NCBI RefSeq assembly: GCF_015244745.1
Contig: NZ_JABCQI010000002.1
Location: forward strand, 434,001-498,000
Length of the DNA stretch: 64,000 bases
Direction: 5' to 3'
Source of the DNA: Gluconobacter cadivus
GTDB taxonomy: Bacteria > Pseudomonadota > Alphaproteobacteria > Acetobacterales > Acetobacteraceae
This document shows positions 25,981 through 54,340 of this stretch, piece by piece; within the stretch, counting starts at the first letter, position 1, and each line of letters begins with the position of its first letter. Position numbers and translations under genes: made by a program. Below the pieces are notes generated by a model. The model saw only the letters and a list, made by a program, of their open reading frames with translations, ran no database searches and had not been told where the DNA came from.

Positions 25981-26098
25981 GGTGATGGTGGTGTCTCGTC
26001 GTTCTGCGTTGCCCTCAAGAAGGAGGCAGACCCGCCGTCGCGCGGTCTGACCCGGCGTTCCGATGCACCCCGCCCGGACCGTCCTTCGGACAACTCAT

Positions 26099-26282
26099 GC
26101 TGACGGCAGGTCTCCTGGCTCATGCTCCGTCTTCAGGCCCCTTCCCGGCCTGCGCCAGTGGGTTCATGTCCTGAAATCGCGCCACCGGCCTTGTGAGGCA
26201 GCAGCCAGCATTTACAGTTGCGGGGGCAGCCGCAGCTTCACACTGCATTCCCTTTTCACCCGCGCAAACGGGCGCCGTCAGC
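26099..26282 (-). ncRNA. Cobalamin riboswitch
   Basis: Read on the minus strand this 184-base element has all the landmarks of the AdoCbl riboswitch. Stem P1 is perfect over 9 bases: GCTGACGGC (minus strand, plus 26274-26282) with GCCGTCAGC (plus 26099-26107). The segment GGGAATGCAGTG is near the 5' side, CCCGCAACTGTAA follows, and the B12 box AGCCAGGAGACCTGCC is at plus 26105-26120. It precedes the BtuB-like gene by 118 bases, so bound cobalamin should lower expression of the uptake operon. Confidence 0.95.
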
Positions 26283-26452
26283 TGTCATGAAGCGCCCTGC
26301 ACAGGGCAAGTCAAATACAAAAGACCTTTTGTGACAGATTTGACACAGTAAAGTCCGCAACATGGCTTTCATTCCGTTACAATCTACCCTTTGCCTCCGT
26401 TTCCTGCCGCCGCCAGTGTCCGTTTCAACAGAGACAGGATCAGGACACGGTC

Positions 26453-27445: not shown

Positions 27446-29962
27446 ATGCGCCTTGCTCGCCTGCTTTCGACTTCGGCCCTGTTTGCGTTTGGTACAGTGT
27501 CGGCATTTGCCGCACCCGCAGACAGCACGGCTCCTTCGACAAAGAAGAGCCCTACGAAAGTCGCAGCTGCCGCTCCGTCCATGATGGGCAACACGGCTCC
27601 AACAGACGAACATGAAGAACATGTCTCAGTCAGCGGTCACCATTCCTATTTCGATGGCGTAACACGCCGCGATGTTGGTGGTGGTCTGATGCAGAAACAG
27701 GACGCGGCGAAGTCCGTTTCAGCCATCTCGCGCGACTACATCGAAAAGCAGGCGCCGGGTCAGGACCCGATGCAGCTGATCGCACTGCTTCCGGGTGCAA
27801 ACGTCACATCCTCCGATCCGGCAGGTCTGACGGGCAGCCATATGAGCGCCCGCGGTCTCGACCAGTCGCAGATGGGTTTCACGCTTGAAGGTTTCCCAAT
27901 CAACGATATCGGGTCCTTCGCGGTTTACTCCCAGGAAATCGTGGACTCCGAAAACCTGCGCAAAATCAGCCTCGCACAGGGTTCTGCTGACCTCGACAGC
28001 CCCCATCTGAGCGCCACCGGCGGCGTGGTCGACATGTATATGATCGACCCGAAGATGAAGAAGGGTGGCGCGTTCGACGTGTCCTATGGCTCCTACGCCT
28101 ATACGCGCGGCTTCCTGCGTCTCGACACAGGCAAGATCGGCCAGACCAACCTGCGTGCCTATTTCTCCGGTTCCTATGCGACCGAAGATGCCATCCATTC
28201 GATGGCCACGAACCGCAAGCTGCATGCCGAAGCCAAGATCGTGAACGACTGGGGTGACGGAAACCGCGTCTCGCTCGCCATCGTCGGCAACCGTTTGTAC
28301 AACTACCTGACACCCAGCGTGAACAAGGCGTCCTGGGACGCTTATGGCTTCGGCGTCAAGGACAAGTATGTGGCCTCCTGCTACAGCGGCAGCACCTGTA
28401 CCCGTCCGGATGGTACGACGTTCAAGAACACCAGCAACGCTACGATCAACAACACGGTCTATAACGGCGCTTACAAGGCTGGCGACGCCAACTATTACAA
28501 ATTCCACCAGAACCCGTTCACCAACATCTACGCAAGTGCTCCCTCGACTTTCAAGCTGACGGATCACCTTGTCCTGACCGAGACGCCATATTTCTGGTAC
28601 GGCAGCGGCAGCGGTGGTGGAGCCTACACGGTTCCCACGAGCTGGGGCGCAACGTCCATGAGCGGCACACTGGATGGCAAGCCCGTCGCCAAAGGCTCGC
28701 TGCTTTATGAACCGTCCATCACCACGACCTATCGTCCGGGTGCCGTCACGAAGCTGACGCTTACCACCGGCGTCAACCGCCTTATGGTCGGTTACTGGTT
28801 CGAATACGCCAAGCAGTCCCAGACGGCTCCCGCCACGGGTATCGGCGCCGATGGTACGCCTTGGGATATCTGGGGTGGCGGACCGAACTATGTATTCAAT
28901 GACGGCACCACCTATCAGTATCGCGCCAGCCTGACGCAGACGCGAACGCACACCATGTTCATCGGTGACAGCCTGTCGCTGCTGAACAACAAGCTCACCA
29001 TTGATGCCGGTCTGAAATATGCGATCGTCACCCGTGACGGTCACAACATGCTGCCCGACACTTCAACGGGTCCGTATATCGACAAGACGTATTACGAGCC
29101 TCTGCCGACAGCATCGATCCGCTATCAGATCAATCCGGAAATGCAGGTTTTCGTCTCGGGTTCGACGAACTTCCGTATCCCGACGAACTACTCCCTGTAT
29201 GACGCTGGCGCCTATTACAAGAACGGCGGTTACGGCACGCAGGCCAACAAGAACCAGCAGCCGGAAATCTCCATCTCGGAAGAGGCCGGCTGGCGTTACA
29301 CAGGCCCGACCGTCATGGCCTCGGTCACGTATTTCCACTACAACTTCACGAACCGCCTGATCTCCCAGCAGGAATGCCTCGACAACGCGTGCCTCAACTA
29401 CGCAACCACCAACATCAACGCGGGTGGCCAGAGCACGAACGGTGTGGATGCGGAGATCGGGACGCGCCCGATCTTCTATCACCTCCGTCCCTATGCCTCG
29501 TTCGAGTATGTGGACGCACGCACAACCAGCAACCTGCTGTCCAGCTCGGGCAACAAGGTTGACTACATGCGGACCAGCGGCAAATTCGCTCCTGACACTC
29601 CCAAGTATCAGGTCGGCTTCAACCTGGACTATGACGACGGCAACCTGTTCGGCGCCTACAGGCTGAAATACGTTGCCAAGCAGTACTCCACATTCATGAA
29701 TGACGAACATATCCCAGGCTACGTCAAGATGGACGTCACAGTGGGTTACCGCTTCAAGAACCTCGGCTTCCTCCAAGCCCCGAACATCAAGTTCAACCTG
29801 ACAAACATCACCAACAACCACTATCTGGGTTTCCCGACAGGCACCCGCGTCAATGCCACGACAAAGACAGGTATCTTCGGAAACTCCATCAAGGGAACGG
29901 CCCCGACCTACATGATCGCGGCACCGTTCGCTGCAACCGGTTCCATCAGCGCCGGTTTCTGA
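27446..29962 (+). CDS. TonB-dependent outer-membrane receptor
   Basis: An 838-residue receptor. The signal peptide ends at about FAAPA (residue 25). An acidic His-containing linker (EHEEHVSVSGHH) leads to a plug domain with ISRDYIEKQAPGQDPMQLIALLPG and TLEGFPINDIGS (each only in part), then a long beta-barrel rich in Asn, Tyr and Thr. It ends in a Phe (SISAGF), as outer-membrane barrels do. The ligand is unknown; no ABC or binding-protein partner is adjacent. Codons are strongly C-ending, suggesting high expression. A strong intrinsic terminator follows at 29990-30019. Confidence 0.88.
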   Translation: MRLARLLSTSALFAFGTVSAFAAPADSTAPSTKKSPTKVAAAAPSMMGNTAPTDEHEEHVSVSGHHSYFDGVTRRDVGGGLMQKQDAAKSVSAISRDYIEKQAPGQDPMQLIALLPGANVTSSDPAGLTGSHMSARGLDQSQMGFTLEGFPINDIGSFAVYSQEIVDSENLRKISLAQGSADLDSPHLSATGGVVDMYMIDPKMKKGGAFDVSYGSYAYTRGFLRLDTGKIGQTNLRAYFSGSYATEDAIHSMATNRKLHAEAKIVNDWGDGNRVSLAIVGNRLYNYLTPSVNKASWDAYGFGVKDKYVASCYSGSTCTRPDGTTFKNTSNATINNTVYNGAYKAGDANYYKFHQNPFTNIYASAPSTFKLTDHLVLTETPYFWYGSGSGGGAYTVPTSWGATSMSGTLDGKPVAKGSLLYEPSITTTYRPGAVTKLTLTTGVNRLMVGYWFEYAKQSQTAPATGIGADGTPWDIWGGGPNYVFNDGTTYQYRASLTQTRTHTMFIGDSLSLLNNKLTIDAGLKYAIVTRDGHNMLPDTSTGPYIDKTYYEPLPTASIRYQINPEMQVFVSGSTNFRIPTNYSLYDAGAYYKNGGYGTQANKNQQPEISISEEAGWRYTGPTVMASVTYFHYNFTNRLISQQECLDNACLNYATTNINAGGQSTNGVDAEIGTRPIFYHLRPYASFEYVDARTTSNLLSSSGNKVDYMRTSGKFAPDTPKYQVGFNLDYDDGNLFGAYRLKYVAKQYSTFMNDEHIPGYVKMDVTVGYRFKNLGFLQAPNIKFNLTNITNNHYLGFPTGTRVNATTKTGIFGNSIKGTAPTYMIAAPFAATGSISAGF

Positions 29963-29989
29963 TCCTTCAGATCCTGCTGTCCCTGAATG

Positions 29990-30019
29990 CCCCATGCCGG
30001 TCTCCGGCATGGGGTTTTT
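29990..30019 (+). terminator. Intrinsic terminator of the TonB receptor gene
   Basis: CCCCATGCCGG (29990-30000) pairs perfectly with CCGGCATGGGG (30004-30014) across a TCT loop and is followed by TTTTT. It starts 28 bases after the receptor stop. This is a textbook rho-independent terminator. Confidence 0.93.
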
Positions 30020-30131
30020 CATGACCATGTAAGGTATTCCAAAACGGAGTGCTGCGCTCTTGCACTCCATTGGACAATATGGCCATTTAAGTTCATACTC
30101 GCGACACACCAGAGACACATAAGGATCCACG

Positions 30132-30635
30132 GTGGGCAGAACGAAAACGACGGACAGGTCAGCTTTGGATATCTATCTGGGCGCTCTTCGGGATCATCTG
30201 TCCATTGAATCCAAGGCCATCGAGACCGCACTTTCGGAGCTTCCGGTGTGTGAGCGGTATCCGGGGCTGTGCCAGCGGATGGAGCAGGATCTGGCGATGG
30301 GCCGGAGCCATGCGCGGGAGATCACGATCCTTCTGTCCCGACACGGGCACCCTGCCCCGGTTCCGCATGAGACGGTTTCGTCCATTCTCAGCACCGTTTC
30401 GGGGCTGTTGCATGGCGGCGAAGCGCGGGACGTTCTGAAGAACGTGCTGGCGGCGAGTGGATACCGGGCGCATCAGATTACGTCACTTCAGATGCTGATC
30501 GTGCTGGCGCGGCAGCTTGGTTTTACGCAGGATGCCTCGGCGTTGGAATGTCTGAAGGACGAAGAGACGGCTTCGGCCGAGGCGCTTGAGCGCCTGATGC
30601 CGGATATCGTGTCGCAGTATCTGGCCGCCGCCTGA
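30132..30635 (+). CDS. DUF892 ferritin-like protein (YciE/YciF-like)
   Basis: A 167-residue protein predicted all-helical. IYLGALRDHLSIESKAIE at 14-31, GLCQRMEQDLAMGRSHAREITILL at 45-68 (partly quoted) and ARQLGFTQDASALECLKDEETASAEAL near 125-150 fit DUF892, a ferritin-like four-helix family linked to stress responses in some bacteria. Its biochemical role is unproven. The start is a GTG at 30132 with AGGA 7 bases upstream. The next gene, a SbcD-like nuclease, starts 49 bases later on the same strand, so joint transcription is possible. Confidence 0.75.
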   Translation: MGRTKTTDRSALDIYLGALRDHLSIESKAIETALSELPVCERYPGLCQRMEQDLAMGRSHAREITILLSRHGHPAPVPHETVSSILSTVSGLLHGGEARDVLKNVLAASGYRAHQITSLQMLIVLARQLGFTQDASALECLKDEETASAEALERLMPDIVSQYLAAA

Positions 30636-51437: not shown

Positions 51438-52138
51438 GCGTGTGTCTGGCTTTCAAGCGTCCGGCGCAACAGCGGTACCAACTCGTCCAGATGGGCGATG
51501 CGGACCGAGCCTTCGACGGGCCAGAAGGGCGGTGCGGGCATGTCTTCCGGGCGAAGAAGCACACAGGCCATGCCCGCCTTCCAGGCAGCTTCTGCTCCAG
51601 TATCGCTGTCTTCGATCACGACACAGCTTTCTGGCAGGACGCCCTCTACTTTTGCCGCGTACAGATAGACGTCCGGGGCGGGCTTGGGGCAGCCCATATC
51701 GTTGGCGGAGTGGACGCGGTTTTCGGGAAAATACTGCGACATTCCGGTTTTTTCGAACTTGGCTTCCATCTCTCGGACGGAAGAATTCGATCCGACGCGA
51801 ACCGGCAGTCCCAAAGACCGTACGCCTGCCAGCATTTCGGGCGCTCCGCCTACAGGTTCTGCGATTTTCTGCATCATCTGTACGAGATTTTCGCGCAGCA
51901 TGACTGCCGTTTCTGCCGGAAGGGCATGACCAATTTCGTGTTCGAGTTCGGTTACGATCTGCGGCAGGGCCATGCCTGCGAAACGCTGATGCGCCTCTTC
52001 GTCGGAAATAGACAGGCCCTTGGATCGGGCGAATTCCGCCGTGGCCCGGCAGGACGGGCCTTCGCTGTCCACGAGCACGCCGTCACAGTCGAAGATGACC
52101 AGTTTCAGCTGGCCTGCTGGATCCAGAGCGGTTGTCAT
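51434..52138 (-). CDS. HAD-superfamily hydrolase (subfamily IA phosphatase)
   Basis: A 234-residue HAD enzyme. FDCDGVLVDSE at 15-25 holds the nucleophile Asp and the acid Asp, VGSNSS near 118 is motif II, Lys in CPKPAPDVYL is motif III, and VIEDSDTGAEAA is motif IV. It resembles beta-phosphoglucomutase/phosphatase-type family members, so it removes or moves a phosphate on a small molecule. Its position between hemE and hemJ, with 4-base overlaps on both sides, makes tight co-expression with haem synthesis certain, but no haem-pathway role is known for it. Confidence 0.88.
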   Translation of the reverse strand: MTTALDPAGQLKLVIFDCDGVLVDSEGPSCRATAEFARSKGLSISDEEAHQRFAGMALPQIVTELEHEIGHALPAETAVMLRENLVQMMQKIAEPVGGAPEMLAGVRSLGLPVRVGSNSSVREMEAKFEKTGMSQYFPENRVHSANDMGCPKPAPDVYLYAAKVEGVLPESCVVIEDSDTGAEAAWKAGMACVLLRPEDMPAPPFWPVEGSVRIAHLDELVPLLRRTLESQTHA

Positions 52139-53196
52139 ACGGACCGTACCGCCTCGACGAGGGCTGCCACGTTTTCAGGGGGCGTATGCTGCATGACGCC
52201 GTGTCCGAGGTTAAAAACATGGGGTTTTCCGCGCATGGCGTCGCGGATGGCCTGGGCTTCACGGATCATTGTCTCACCGCCGGAGAACAGGATCATCGGG
52301 TCCATGTTGCCCTGAAGGGTGAGGCCCGGAACGGCTTCGGACAGCAGTTCGGAAATCTGGGCCGGGTCGGCGACCGTGTCGAGCGCCAGCGTGTTGATGC
52401 CGGTTTTCTGCGCGTATTCGCGGACCATGATGCCGCCGAGGCGCGGAAAGCCGATCAGCGGGGTGTTGGGGTGACGGGCGCGGATGTACGCGACGATCTG
52501 GCGCGTCGGTTCGATCACGTAGCGGCGGAATGCTGAAGGGGGCAGGATTCCGGCCCAGGAATCGAACAGCATCACGGCTTCCGCACCGGCTTCGATCTGG
52601 CCGCAGAGCATCTCGGCGGTACTCGAAGTCAGGGTGTCGATCAGGCGATCGAACAGGGCCGGGTTGGTCTGCATCATGCGGCGGGTTTCAGCGAAATCCC
52701 GCGATCCACCGCCCTCGACCATGTAGCAGGCGACCGTAAACGGGCTGCCTGCGAAGCCCAGAAGGGTTGTGACGTCAGGAAGCTCTTTGGCGAGGCGGGA
52801 CAAGGTCTCGCGCACGGGTGCGACGGCGTCCTGTACGCGCTTGGGATCGAGCCGGGCGAGATCAGCTTCGGAGCGGATGGCGCCGAGGACCGGGCCGCGG
52901 CCTTCGATGAAGTCCAGAGACTGACCCATGGCCCAAGGCAGGATCAGGATGTCGGAAAACAGGATCGCGCCGTCCATGCCGTAGCGGCGGATCGGCTGGA
53001 TCGTCAGCTCGGTGGCCATGTCCGGAGTCATGCACCGGGTCAGGAAGTCGGCCTTGTCGCGCATGGCGCGGAATTCGGGGAGATAGCGGCCTGCCTGACG
53101 CATGAGCCAGACCGGAGGCGGCCAGACGGCTTCACCACGGAGAGCCCGCAAAAGCGGTTTTGATGAGGGTGAGGAAGATGCGTTTTCCGAAATCAT
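52135..53196 (-). CDS. hemE: Uroporphyrinogen decarboxylase
   Basis: A 353-residue enzyme at normal HemE length. WLMRQAGRYLPEFRAMR near 31-47 is the first signature, DILILPWAMG near 81-90 holds the catalytic Asp, GFAGSPFTVACYMVEGGGSRDF (part) is the second, and the C-terminal FNLGHGVMQHTPPENV is conserved. It decarboxylates uroporphyrinogen III to coproporphyrinogen III. I use the ATG at 53196; a GTG at 53205 is an alternative. Its stop overlaps the HAD start by 4 bases. The upstream gap is the GTAC-rich region facing maf. Confidence 0.97.
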   Translation of the reverse strand: MISENASSSPSSKPLLRALRGEAVWPPPVWLMRQAGRYLPEFRAMRDKADFLTRCMTPDMATELTIQPIRRYGMDGAILFSDILILPWAMGQSLDFIEGRGPVLGAIRSEADLARLDPKRVQDAVAPVRETLSRLAKELPDVTTLLGFAGSPFTVACYMVEGGGSRDFAETRRMMQTNPALFDRLIDTLTSSTAEMLCGQIEAGAEAVMLFDSWAGILPPSAFRRYVIEPTRQIVAYIRARHPNTPLIGFPRLGGIMVREYAQKTGINTLALDTVADPAQISELLSEAVPGLTLQGNMDPMILFSGGETMIREAQAIRDAMRGKPHVFNLGHGVMQHTPPENVAALVEAVRSV

Positions 53197-53205
53197 GCCG
53201 CCCAC

Positions 53206-53549
53206 TAATCATAAAAGAAAAAAGAAAGAAATGCTGGAGGTTAAGATGATCCCTGTGGATACCGGGGTACCCGGCTTTCTGAAAATGTACCCCGTCTTGT
53301 TCACACTGTGTACAACTCTGAAGGCCGCAGTCTGCAAGGGAGTCGTTGATTCTATCCCGAATTGCCCACAGAGAGGCTGTGTACAACCCCCAGTTCCGGC
53401 TGGTGTACCGTACAATCCACGGTACTCGGTACTCCTTTCGGGAGGGCAGGTACTATCCCCATGTACCCCAGTACTGACGCAATGCCTTCACAGGGTTTCT
53501 TGCAGTACTCGTCCTTCTTTCCGCAGTCGATAGTACGGAGTCGTACATC
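53206..53549. other. GTAC-rich hemE-maf intergenic region (candidate replication origin or control region)
   Basis: These 344 bases hold no gene I can support. They carry 14 copies of GTAC between 53267 and 53546 (positions 53267, 53287, 53310, 53381, 53405, 53410, 53422, 53429, 53450, 53463, 53471, 53505, 53533, 53543), where about one is expected by chance; a fifteenth is inside maf. Near-matches to a DnaA box are TGTGGATAC (53254-53262, 8 of 9 against TGTGGATAA), TGTGTACAA at 53307-53315 and 53378-53386, and TTGCCCACA (53362-53370). Three GANTC sites are also present. In several alphaproteobacteria oriC lies beside hemE, so an origin is one reading. Confidence 0.45.
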
Positions 53550-54161
53550 ATGATGTCTTTCAGTACTTCCCTGATTCTTGCCAGCGGGTCGTCAGCCCGG
53601 CGTATGTTGCTCGAAAATGCAGGTCTGACGATGCAGGCCAGACCGGTCGATCTCGATGAGGAAGCGCTGCGGCGATCCTGCGAGGCGCAGGGACAGACGC
53701 TTTCGGAAACGGCGATCGCTCTGGCAGATGCAAAAGCCAATCTCGCGACACGGGATGTGGGCTTCGAGGATCTGACTGTGGCTGCGGACCAGATTCTCGA
53801 TCTGGACGGGGTGGCCTTTGCCAAGCCGGGCTCTGTGGCGGAGGCAGGAGAGCATCTGCGTCGGCTGCGCGGGCGGACGCATGTTCTGCGCACGGCGGTG
53901 GTTCTCTATAAGGGGGGCGAGAAAATCTGGGAGCATCTGGCATCGCCGCGTTTGACGATGCGGAAGTTCTCGGAGGCGTTTCTTGAGGCCTATCTGGAGC
54001 GGGAAGGGGCTGCCATCTTGTCCTGTGTGGGCGCGTATCGGCTGGAAGGCACCGGAATACAGCTTTTTTCAGCTGTCGAAGGGGCACAGGATGCCGTTCT
54101 GGGGCTGCCGCTGCTTCCGTTATTGGAGGAACTGCGGAGGCTGAAGGCGATTTCTGCGTGA
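53550..54161 (+). CDS. maf: Maf-family nucleoside triphosphate pyrophosphatase
   Basis: A 203-residue Maf protein. LILASGSSARRMLLENAGL near 8-26 is the N-terminal signature (usual form LASxSPRR), and AADQILDLDG near 78 holds the catalytic Asp-containing motif. Maf proteins hydrolyse modified or canonical nucleoside triphosphates and can influence septation. The ATG at 53550 has GGAG 9 bases upstream, with a GTAC in the spacer. It is divergent from hemE across the GTAC-rich gap. In many alphaproteobacteria maf lies near aroE and dnaQ, but those are not here. Confidence 0.88.
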   Translation: MMSFSTSLILASGSSARRMLLENAGLTMQARPVDLDEEALRRSCEAQGQTLSETAIALADAKANLATRDVGFEDLTVAADQILDLDGVAFAKPGSVAEAGEHLRRLRGRTHVLRTAVVLYKGGEKIWEHLASPRLTMRKFSEAFLEAYLEREGAAILSCVGAYRLEGTGIQLFSAVEGAQDAVLGLPLLPLLEELRRLKAISA

Positions 54162-54264: not shown

Positions 54265-54340
54265 GGGGCCATAGCTCAGTTGGGAGAGCGCCTGAATGGC
54301 ATTCAGGAGGTCGTCGGTTCGATCCCGATTGGCTCCACCA
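54265..54340 (+). tRNA. tRNA-Ala (anticodon GGC)
   Basis: A complete 76-base tRNA with encoded CCA. The acceptor stem GGGGCCA/TGGCTCC contains the G3-U70 pair that identifies alanine tRNAs. The anticodon stem CCTGA/TCAGG encloses loop ATGGCAT, giving anticodon GGC, which reads GCC. D arm and T arm (GTCGG-TTCGATC-CCGAT) are regular. Confidence 0.97.

Follow-up and report, generated by a model that had tools for sequence, protein, structure and literature searches.

The 344-base gap between hemE and a maf-like gene in Gluconobacter cadivus, which contains 14 copies of the palindrome GTAC, is very probably the chromosomal origin of replication (oriC) of acetic acid bacteria, judging by the conservation of the array and the GC skew around it. 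We also consider it reasonably likely that the GTACs are the targets of a conserved orphan, RsaI-like methyltransferase, here called B, that marks this origin. The preliminary description of this DNA had offered "oriC or new multi-site regulator array" as alternatives; our reading merges the two, as an origin whose distinctive sites would be GTAC and not DnaA boxes. The window analysed is a stretch of 64,000 bases (C2:434001-498000) from an assembly of 3.29 Mb in 32 contigs. The features of the gap are collected in Table 1.

The 14 GTACs of the gap start at 53267, 53287, 53310, 53381, 53405, 53410, 53422, 53429, 53450, 53463, 53471, 53505, 53533 and 53543, and a fifteenth, at 53563, lies within maf. 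The earlier figure of 15 GTACs in 300 bases is right for positions 53206-53566, but the best 300-base stretch has 14. GTAC is scarce outside the array, and at the window's own frequency (72 in all 64 kb) 344 bases should contain 0.39. Simulated gaps contained a mean of 1.9 and a maximum of 9 under a first-order Markov model, and a mean of 1.4 and a maximum of 7 after mononucleotide shuffling (5000 draws each). With 14 observed and 0.39-1.9 expected, a chance origin of the cluster is ruled out. The neighbouring genes are divergent, as had been described, and the three GANTC sites reported between them are indeed present (53340, 53348 and 53538), with another at 53573. Just 3ʹ of maf there is a tRNA-Ala (GGC) gene, at 54265-54340.

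Table 1. Features of the hemE-maf gap and its borders (window positions)
Feature	Position	Strand	Basis
hemE (name by eye); left neighbour of gap, divergent	52135..53205	-	ORF
Candidate chromosomal origin: the intergenic region between hemE and maf, containing 14 GTAC	53206..53549	.	Counts, conservation, skew
A-rich tract, hemE side; possible unwinding element	53211..53232	.	Sequence
DnaA-box-like TGTGGATAC (GTATCCACA, one mismatch to TTATCCACA)	53254..53262	-	Sequence
Core block GGTACCC-N5-TC-N4-AA-N-GTACCCC, the array signature	53266..53293	+	33/160 family genomes at ≤1 mismatch, single copy each
DnaA-box-like TTGTTCACA	53297..53305	+	Sequence; absent from the preliminary description
TGTGTACAA: GTAC overlapping a DnaA-box-like 9-mer (TTGTACACA)	53307..53315	-	GTAC here in 17/17 arrays
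DnaA-box-like TTGCCCACA, two mismatches	53362..53370	+	Sequence
Second TGTGTACAA	53378..53386	-	GTAC here in 17/17 arrays
Densest GTAC part, with GTACTCGGTAC and GTACTATCCCCATGTACCCCAGTAC	53405..53474	+	7 GTAC per 70 bases
GTACs not common to all genera (53505, 53533, 53543, 53563), reaching the start of maf	53505..53566	+	Sequence, cross-genus arrays
maf-like gene (name by eye, from the preliminary description); right neighbour of gap	53550..54161	+	ORF

The array is a constant feature of the genus. hemE was found in all 26 genus genomes, and in every one of them a cluster of 10-15 GTACs per 344 bases adjoins it. The preliminary description had made conservation of the GTAC sites in an alignment of the gap its check for a regulator array; the sites are conserved, in 26 of 26 genus genomes and with 100% identity in five. 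For a wider view we took the best 80 named hemE loci, 79 of which have sufficient upstream sequence. Nine of the 79 (from Gluconobacter, Acetobacter, Komagataeibacter, Gluconacetobacter and Commensalibacter) carry 11-15 GTACs per 344 bases, and 68, from Roseomonas, Rhodopila, Azospirillum and further alphaproteobacteria, carry 0-3. The loci of Bombella and Parasaccharibacter have just 2 and 1, respectively, because in these genera the array sits elsewhere: it lies 21-23 kb from hemE, at G031:C2:346120-346319 in Parasaccharibacter and at G032:C5:224029-224236 in Bombella. The 28-base core pattern, with at most one mismatch, is spread over 21 genera of the family, and its reversed control matches nothing. 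A looser pattern of three GTACs has 16 forward matches genome-wide, 11 of them in the array region; it is unspecific (6 to 54 matches across nine genomes), and because CATG is common the reversed control gives many more matches (703 in one count).

Within the array, conservation is concentrated on the GTACs. When sites were chosen from the window alone and five collinear genomes of the window's clade were compared, identity was 100% for GTAC bases within the gap, 86% for the remaining bases of the gap, and 71% for GTACs outside it, much as for other bases. Across 17 arrays, GTAC-site columns show 99.6% identity as against 70%, a difference that is partly by construction since a site was selected only if 15 or more of the 17 arrays had GTAC there and the arrays were themselves found with a GTAC pattern; the five-genome comparison is therefore the fairer measure. 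The 17 arrays hold 217 GTACs in total. Eight places have GTAC in 16-17 arrays and two more in 12-13, and around several of the GTACs that keep their place the flanks and the spacing are conserved too. A further 40 of the 217 are at places common to at most four arrays, with varied flanks, and 14 of the 16 possible NGTACN hexamers occur (9 of 10 with strands merged). This variety of context, and lineage-specific GTACs whose flanks are unrelated, favour a reader of the four-base palindrome. GTAC as the conserved unit of the array would suit such a protein better than it suits DnaA.

The near-DnaA boxes of the preliminary description (TGTGGATAC, TGTGTACAA twice and TTGCCCACA) are present as stated, but they are weak. 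There is no perfect TTATCCACA among the DnaA-like sites of the gap. The 12 array origins that we tabulated have 10-16 GTACs and no TTATCCACA, Commensalibacter, at 31% G+C, among them; a single TTATNCACA occurs overall, in G014, and the other sites are weaker. Sixteen of the 17 arrays preserve the TGTG of the TGTGGATAC site at 53254. All five flank bases of a DnaA box are matched by 29 of 216 GTACs (0.3 expected), nearly all at two TGTGTACA sites, and the remaining 187 match at chance level. With canonical boxes absent and most GTAC flanks unlike DnaA boxes, an ordinary DnaA-box cluster is ruled out. On the hemE side, the A-rich tract is a possible unwinding element; its AAGAAAGAAAT is invariant across the 13 aligned of 26 genus sequences, and the corresponding region in Parasaccharibacter and Bombella is A+T-rich, yet not alignable.

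GC skew changes sign at the array in several relatives. In G014 and G021, which are near-complete chromosomes, 20 sampled stretches of 20 kb each were mostly negative on one side and positive on the other, with the switch at the array. In G014 the flip is no more than ~1 kb from the array and separates the 968-kb bin from the 969-kb bin (hemE lies at 967.5-968.6 kb); in G021 it is close to the array and more gradual, near 1050 kb. Skew also switches at the array in G005, G006, G007 and G025, with small amplitude, and noisily in G029; G010, G027 and G028 have no clear switch there. The most telling origin evidence comes from the relocated arrays of G031 and G032: in both genomes it is at the array, and not at hemE, that the skew changes sign. 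Two exact matches to a parS motif lie 24 and 47 kb from the array. dnaA is far from the switch in both near-complete chromosomes: its C-terminal domain is at G014:C1:1147-1353, with the switch near 969 kb, and dnaA of G021 is at C1:1144-1350, with the switch near 1050 kb. The precedent invoked in the preliminary description agrees with the published record that the origins of Caulobacter and Rickettsia adjoin hemE (PMC1914354). For one published Acetobacter genome a predicted oriC is placed near dnaA (PMC3751514). No GTAC origin appears among the matches listed for literature on acetic acid bacteria origins or GTAC methylation, as far as the openings of their abstracts go.

The window's own clade departs from this pattern. 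The G excess on the hemE side of the plus strand, raised earlier as an argument against an origin, is real, and for this clade the argument stands: skew flips at the array in several relatives, G014, G021, G031 and G032 among them, but ~23 kb away from it here. The plus strand is G-rich from 30 kb on through hemE. At fourfold sites of genes called by a simple script, the gene at 27446 has a skew of -0.16 and the gene at 30132 one of +0.48, a step located at 29962/30132; beyond it skew stays positive in genes on both strands. The step falls between TonB-receptor-like and ferritin-like genes (named by eye). Elsewhere in the window, a cobalamin riboswitch (Rfam RF00174, 101.5 bits; 26088-26294, minus strand) lies upstream of a TonB-receptor-like gene. 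Fourfold skew of hemE is -0.26 to -0.44 in 14 of the 26 genus genomes, where the gene is skewed like a lagging-strand gene, and -0.13 to +0.26 in the other 12. Eight clade genomes (G000, G013, G002, G008, G009, G012, G016 and G024) are all G-rich beside hemE, on the hemE side, and have mixed skew signs ~10-38 kb from the array. In outline, a displaced switch is common to the clade.

Could the array have a role other than that of the working origin? One possibility is that in the 14-genome clade of the window the working origin has moved ~23 kb or more hemE-ward, leaving the array with another role. The skew step and the lagging-like hemE would suit such a move, as would the gene order around hemE, which does not differ from that of G014 even though skew in G014 flips at the array; given that shared order, either the fork may have changed direction there or the segment may have some other history. 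We nevertheless consider a moved origin unlikely. The GTACs of the gap are fully identical in the five aligned clade genomes, and no rival site was found at the step, where the gap at 29963-30131 lacks GTAC (by eye) and has no DnaA box at one mismatch. Neither the window nor 13 sampled C2 stretches contain a cluster of at least three DnaA boxes (one mismatch), and a list of the 41 stretches of 60 bases with the highest conservation in 20.4-62.8 kb includes no comparable gap, judged by coordinates. It is very improbable that the array merely regulates the hemE and maf promoters and is no origin. Divergent flanking genes would fit a promoter array, and so would the displaced skew step of the window's clade, but Parasaccharibacter and Bombella have the array away from hemE with the skew flip at the array, other genomes also flip there, and a search of the hemE-maf gap for a sigma-70-like promoter found none, although this last point is weak evidence.

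What might read the GTACs? A methyltransferase scan with the PF01555 family alone gave a CcrM-like match in all 26 genus genomes (the NCBIfam CcrM model matches G000 at E 9e-189, below the model cut-off) and, also in all 26, a second match of 135-146 bits that we take for B. The sequence of B was read in two genomes, G014 and G000 (273 aa, C1:238823-239641), and a protein search finds it in G000, G003 and G019. Its motif IV is TSPPYN, which we take to be typical of N4-cytosine enzymes, where the CcrM-like enzyme has DPPYN; B is accordingly predicted to be an N4-cytosine methyltransferase. In G000 and G014 it adjoins a gene resembling mltA, others resembling secB and tim44 are close by (all named by eye), and no restriction gene is evident beside it, so that from its gene context and distribution B classes as a putative conserved orphan methyltransferase. 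Within the genus B is remote from the origin, 0.8 Mb away in G014; in five genomes of the family that lack the core it lies 5-9 kb from hemE.

The word that B methylates is probably GTAC, on the evidence of two phage neighbours and a shared recognition stretch. The best phage relatives of B, at 43-47% identity, are in an uncultured phage and Synechococcus phages. In cyanophages Syn19 and ACG-2014j the B homologue (43-44% identity) overlaps a preceding gene annotated as the R.RsaI endonuclease, and RsaI cuts GTAC. The presumed target-reading stretch between the catalytic motifs is common to B and the phage enzymes and is not found in the CcrM-like enzyme. No R.RsaI gene stands beside the B relatives of phage ACG-2014f and two Paracoccus plasmids (50-52%, one partial), and the annotated R.RsaI proteins have no Pfam, NCBIfam or PDB support, the label being the depositors'. 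The PDB chain nearest to B by sequence is 8urk, entitled "Methyltransferase", which is probably the Burkholderia GTWWAC enzyme.

B and the array go together across the family. B is present in 73 of 160 family genomes (E 1e-20); all 33 genomes with the core are among them, and none of the 87 B-negative genomes has it (Fisher p 3.5e-14; by genus, 21/50 vs 0/52, p 2e-8; kinship is ignored in both). The association is one-sided, 40 of the 73 B-positive genomes being without the core. Thirty of these 40 loci were read, with the hemE start assumed to be 1500 bases into the locus (L347 and L349 are shorter): eight have 4-11 GTACs per 344 bases and 22 have at most three. B is thus not confined to genomes with an array. 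Five B-negative genomes, picked among those of the 87 with HemE nearest to that of the window, have 0-2 GTACs in ~1 kb by hemE and no array. One of them, G099, has no GTAC and 14 perfect TTATCCACA upstream of hemE (L357, G099:C1:948000-949100). G063 and G149 have 1 and 0 GTAC and 2 and 4 TTATNCACA, respectively, in DNA of 29-31% G+C, and the GC-rich G077 and G062 lack both the array and DnaA boxes. Of four genomes with weak arrays, G047 and G133 have GTACs plus 1-2 TTATCCACA. A strong CcrM-like match is kept in 12 of 12 B-negative genomes scanned.

We propose that B, as an RsaI-like and predicted N4-cytosine enzyme, methylates the GTACs of the origin, and that replication would leave the array hemimethylated. 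The methylation state would in turn alter binding by DnaA or another protein, and this altered binding could space out initiations, as GATC, Dam and SeqA do in E. coli. The steps of this scheme are modelled on E. coli; its predictions are methylation of GTAC, an effect on initiation timing, and a reader protein.

Two other readings keep the origin and assign the GTACs differently. A sequence-specific initiator or regulator might read GTAC without methylation, the presence of B being coincidental. The conserved flanks and spacing of several fixed-place GTACs would be expected of such a protein, and B is found also where there is no array. We regard this as somewhat unlikely, however, given the 14 of 16 flanking contexts and the lineage-specific GTACs with unrelated flanks, which suit a palindrome reader, the presence of B in 33 of 33 core genomes and its absence from the five array-less relatives read, and the two phage homologues of B that abut genes annotated R.RsaI. 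It is quite improbable that the GTAC words are variant DnaA boxes of the TTGTACACA type. The sites that account for the excess of full flank matches are kept in 17 of 17 arrays, and three B-negative relatives have canonical boxes instead, both of which this reading would explain; it does not explain the 187 other GTACs with chance-level flanks. Moreover, the DnaA helix-turn-helix signature GNRDHTTVMHA is identical in 12 array genomes and in the B-negative G099, G077 and G062 (20 genomes read, 26 searched), which gives no indication of a changed DnaA specificity.

If B does methylate the origin GTACs, a broader and more tentative proposal may follow: acetic acid bacteria may have evolved a form of origin control separately from Dam/SeqA, in which an RsaI-like orphan enzyme, probably making N4-methylcytosine, acts on about a dozen GTACs, canonical DnaA boxes have been given up, and lineages that lack the enzyme rely on origins with DnaA boxes. 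We know of no origin that is timed by cytosine-N4 methylation, and acetic acid bacteria would be the first. They would provide a second methylation-timed arrangement, with another word and enzyme class and without canonical DnaA boxes, from which it could be learned which logic is general, and relatives that have TTATCCACA boxes and no B offer a natural comparison. The location of oriC in industrial producers of vinegar, cellulose and gluconate may also need correcting, to a place beside hemE or at the array.

How does this arrangement compare with known systems? The textbook methylation-timed origin is oriC of E. coli, where GATC is methylated by Dam, and SeqA is involved. Common to both are many copies of one palindromic tetramer within oriC and an orphan methyltransferase, which is proposed here. 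Unlike in E. coli, GTAC replaces GATC, the predicted enzyme is of the beta class and possibly an N4-cytosine enzyme of RsaI type, GTAC is scarce in the rest of the window, and the tabulated array origins lack the canonical TTATCCACA. With Caulobacter Cori and Rickettsia the gap shares its position adjoining hemE and, in all 26 genus genomes, a CcrM-like match; its right neighbour is maf, whereas Caulobacter and Rickettsia have COG1806 there (PMC1914354). In contrast to the CcrM/GANTC system, GANTC is not enriched, with three sites in the interval. In Burkholderia cenocepacia, origins are reported to be methylated at CACAG and GTWWAC, and nucleoids looked larger in both mutants (PMC7364216). 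Methylation-rich origins and a palindromic GT..AC word with an orphan enzyme would make it similar to the system proposed here; it differs in that GTWWAC sites are few near its origins and form no dense array, in its use of adenine methylation, and in lineage (PMC7364216). B resembles RsaI restriction-modification in its 43-44% identity to phage enzymes paired with annotated R.RsaI, but it has no evident restriction gene beside it in G000 and G014, and it is conserved across genera. Taken by analogy, the best reading of the GTAC origin is a methylation-controlled origin of the GATC/Dam type that would use a new word and a new enzyme.
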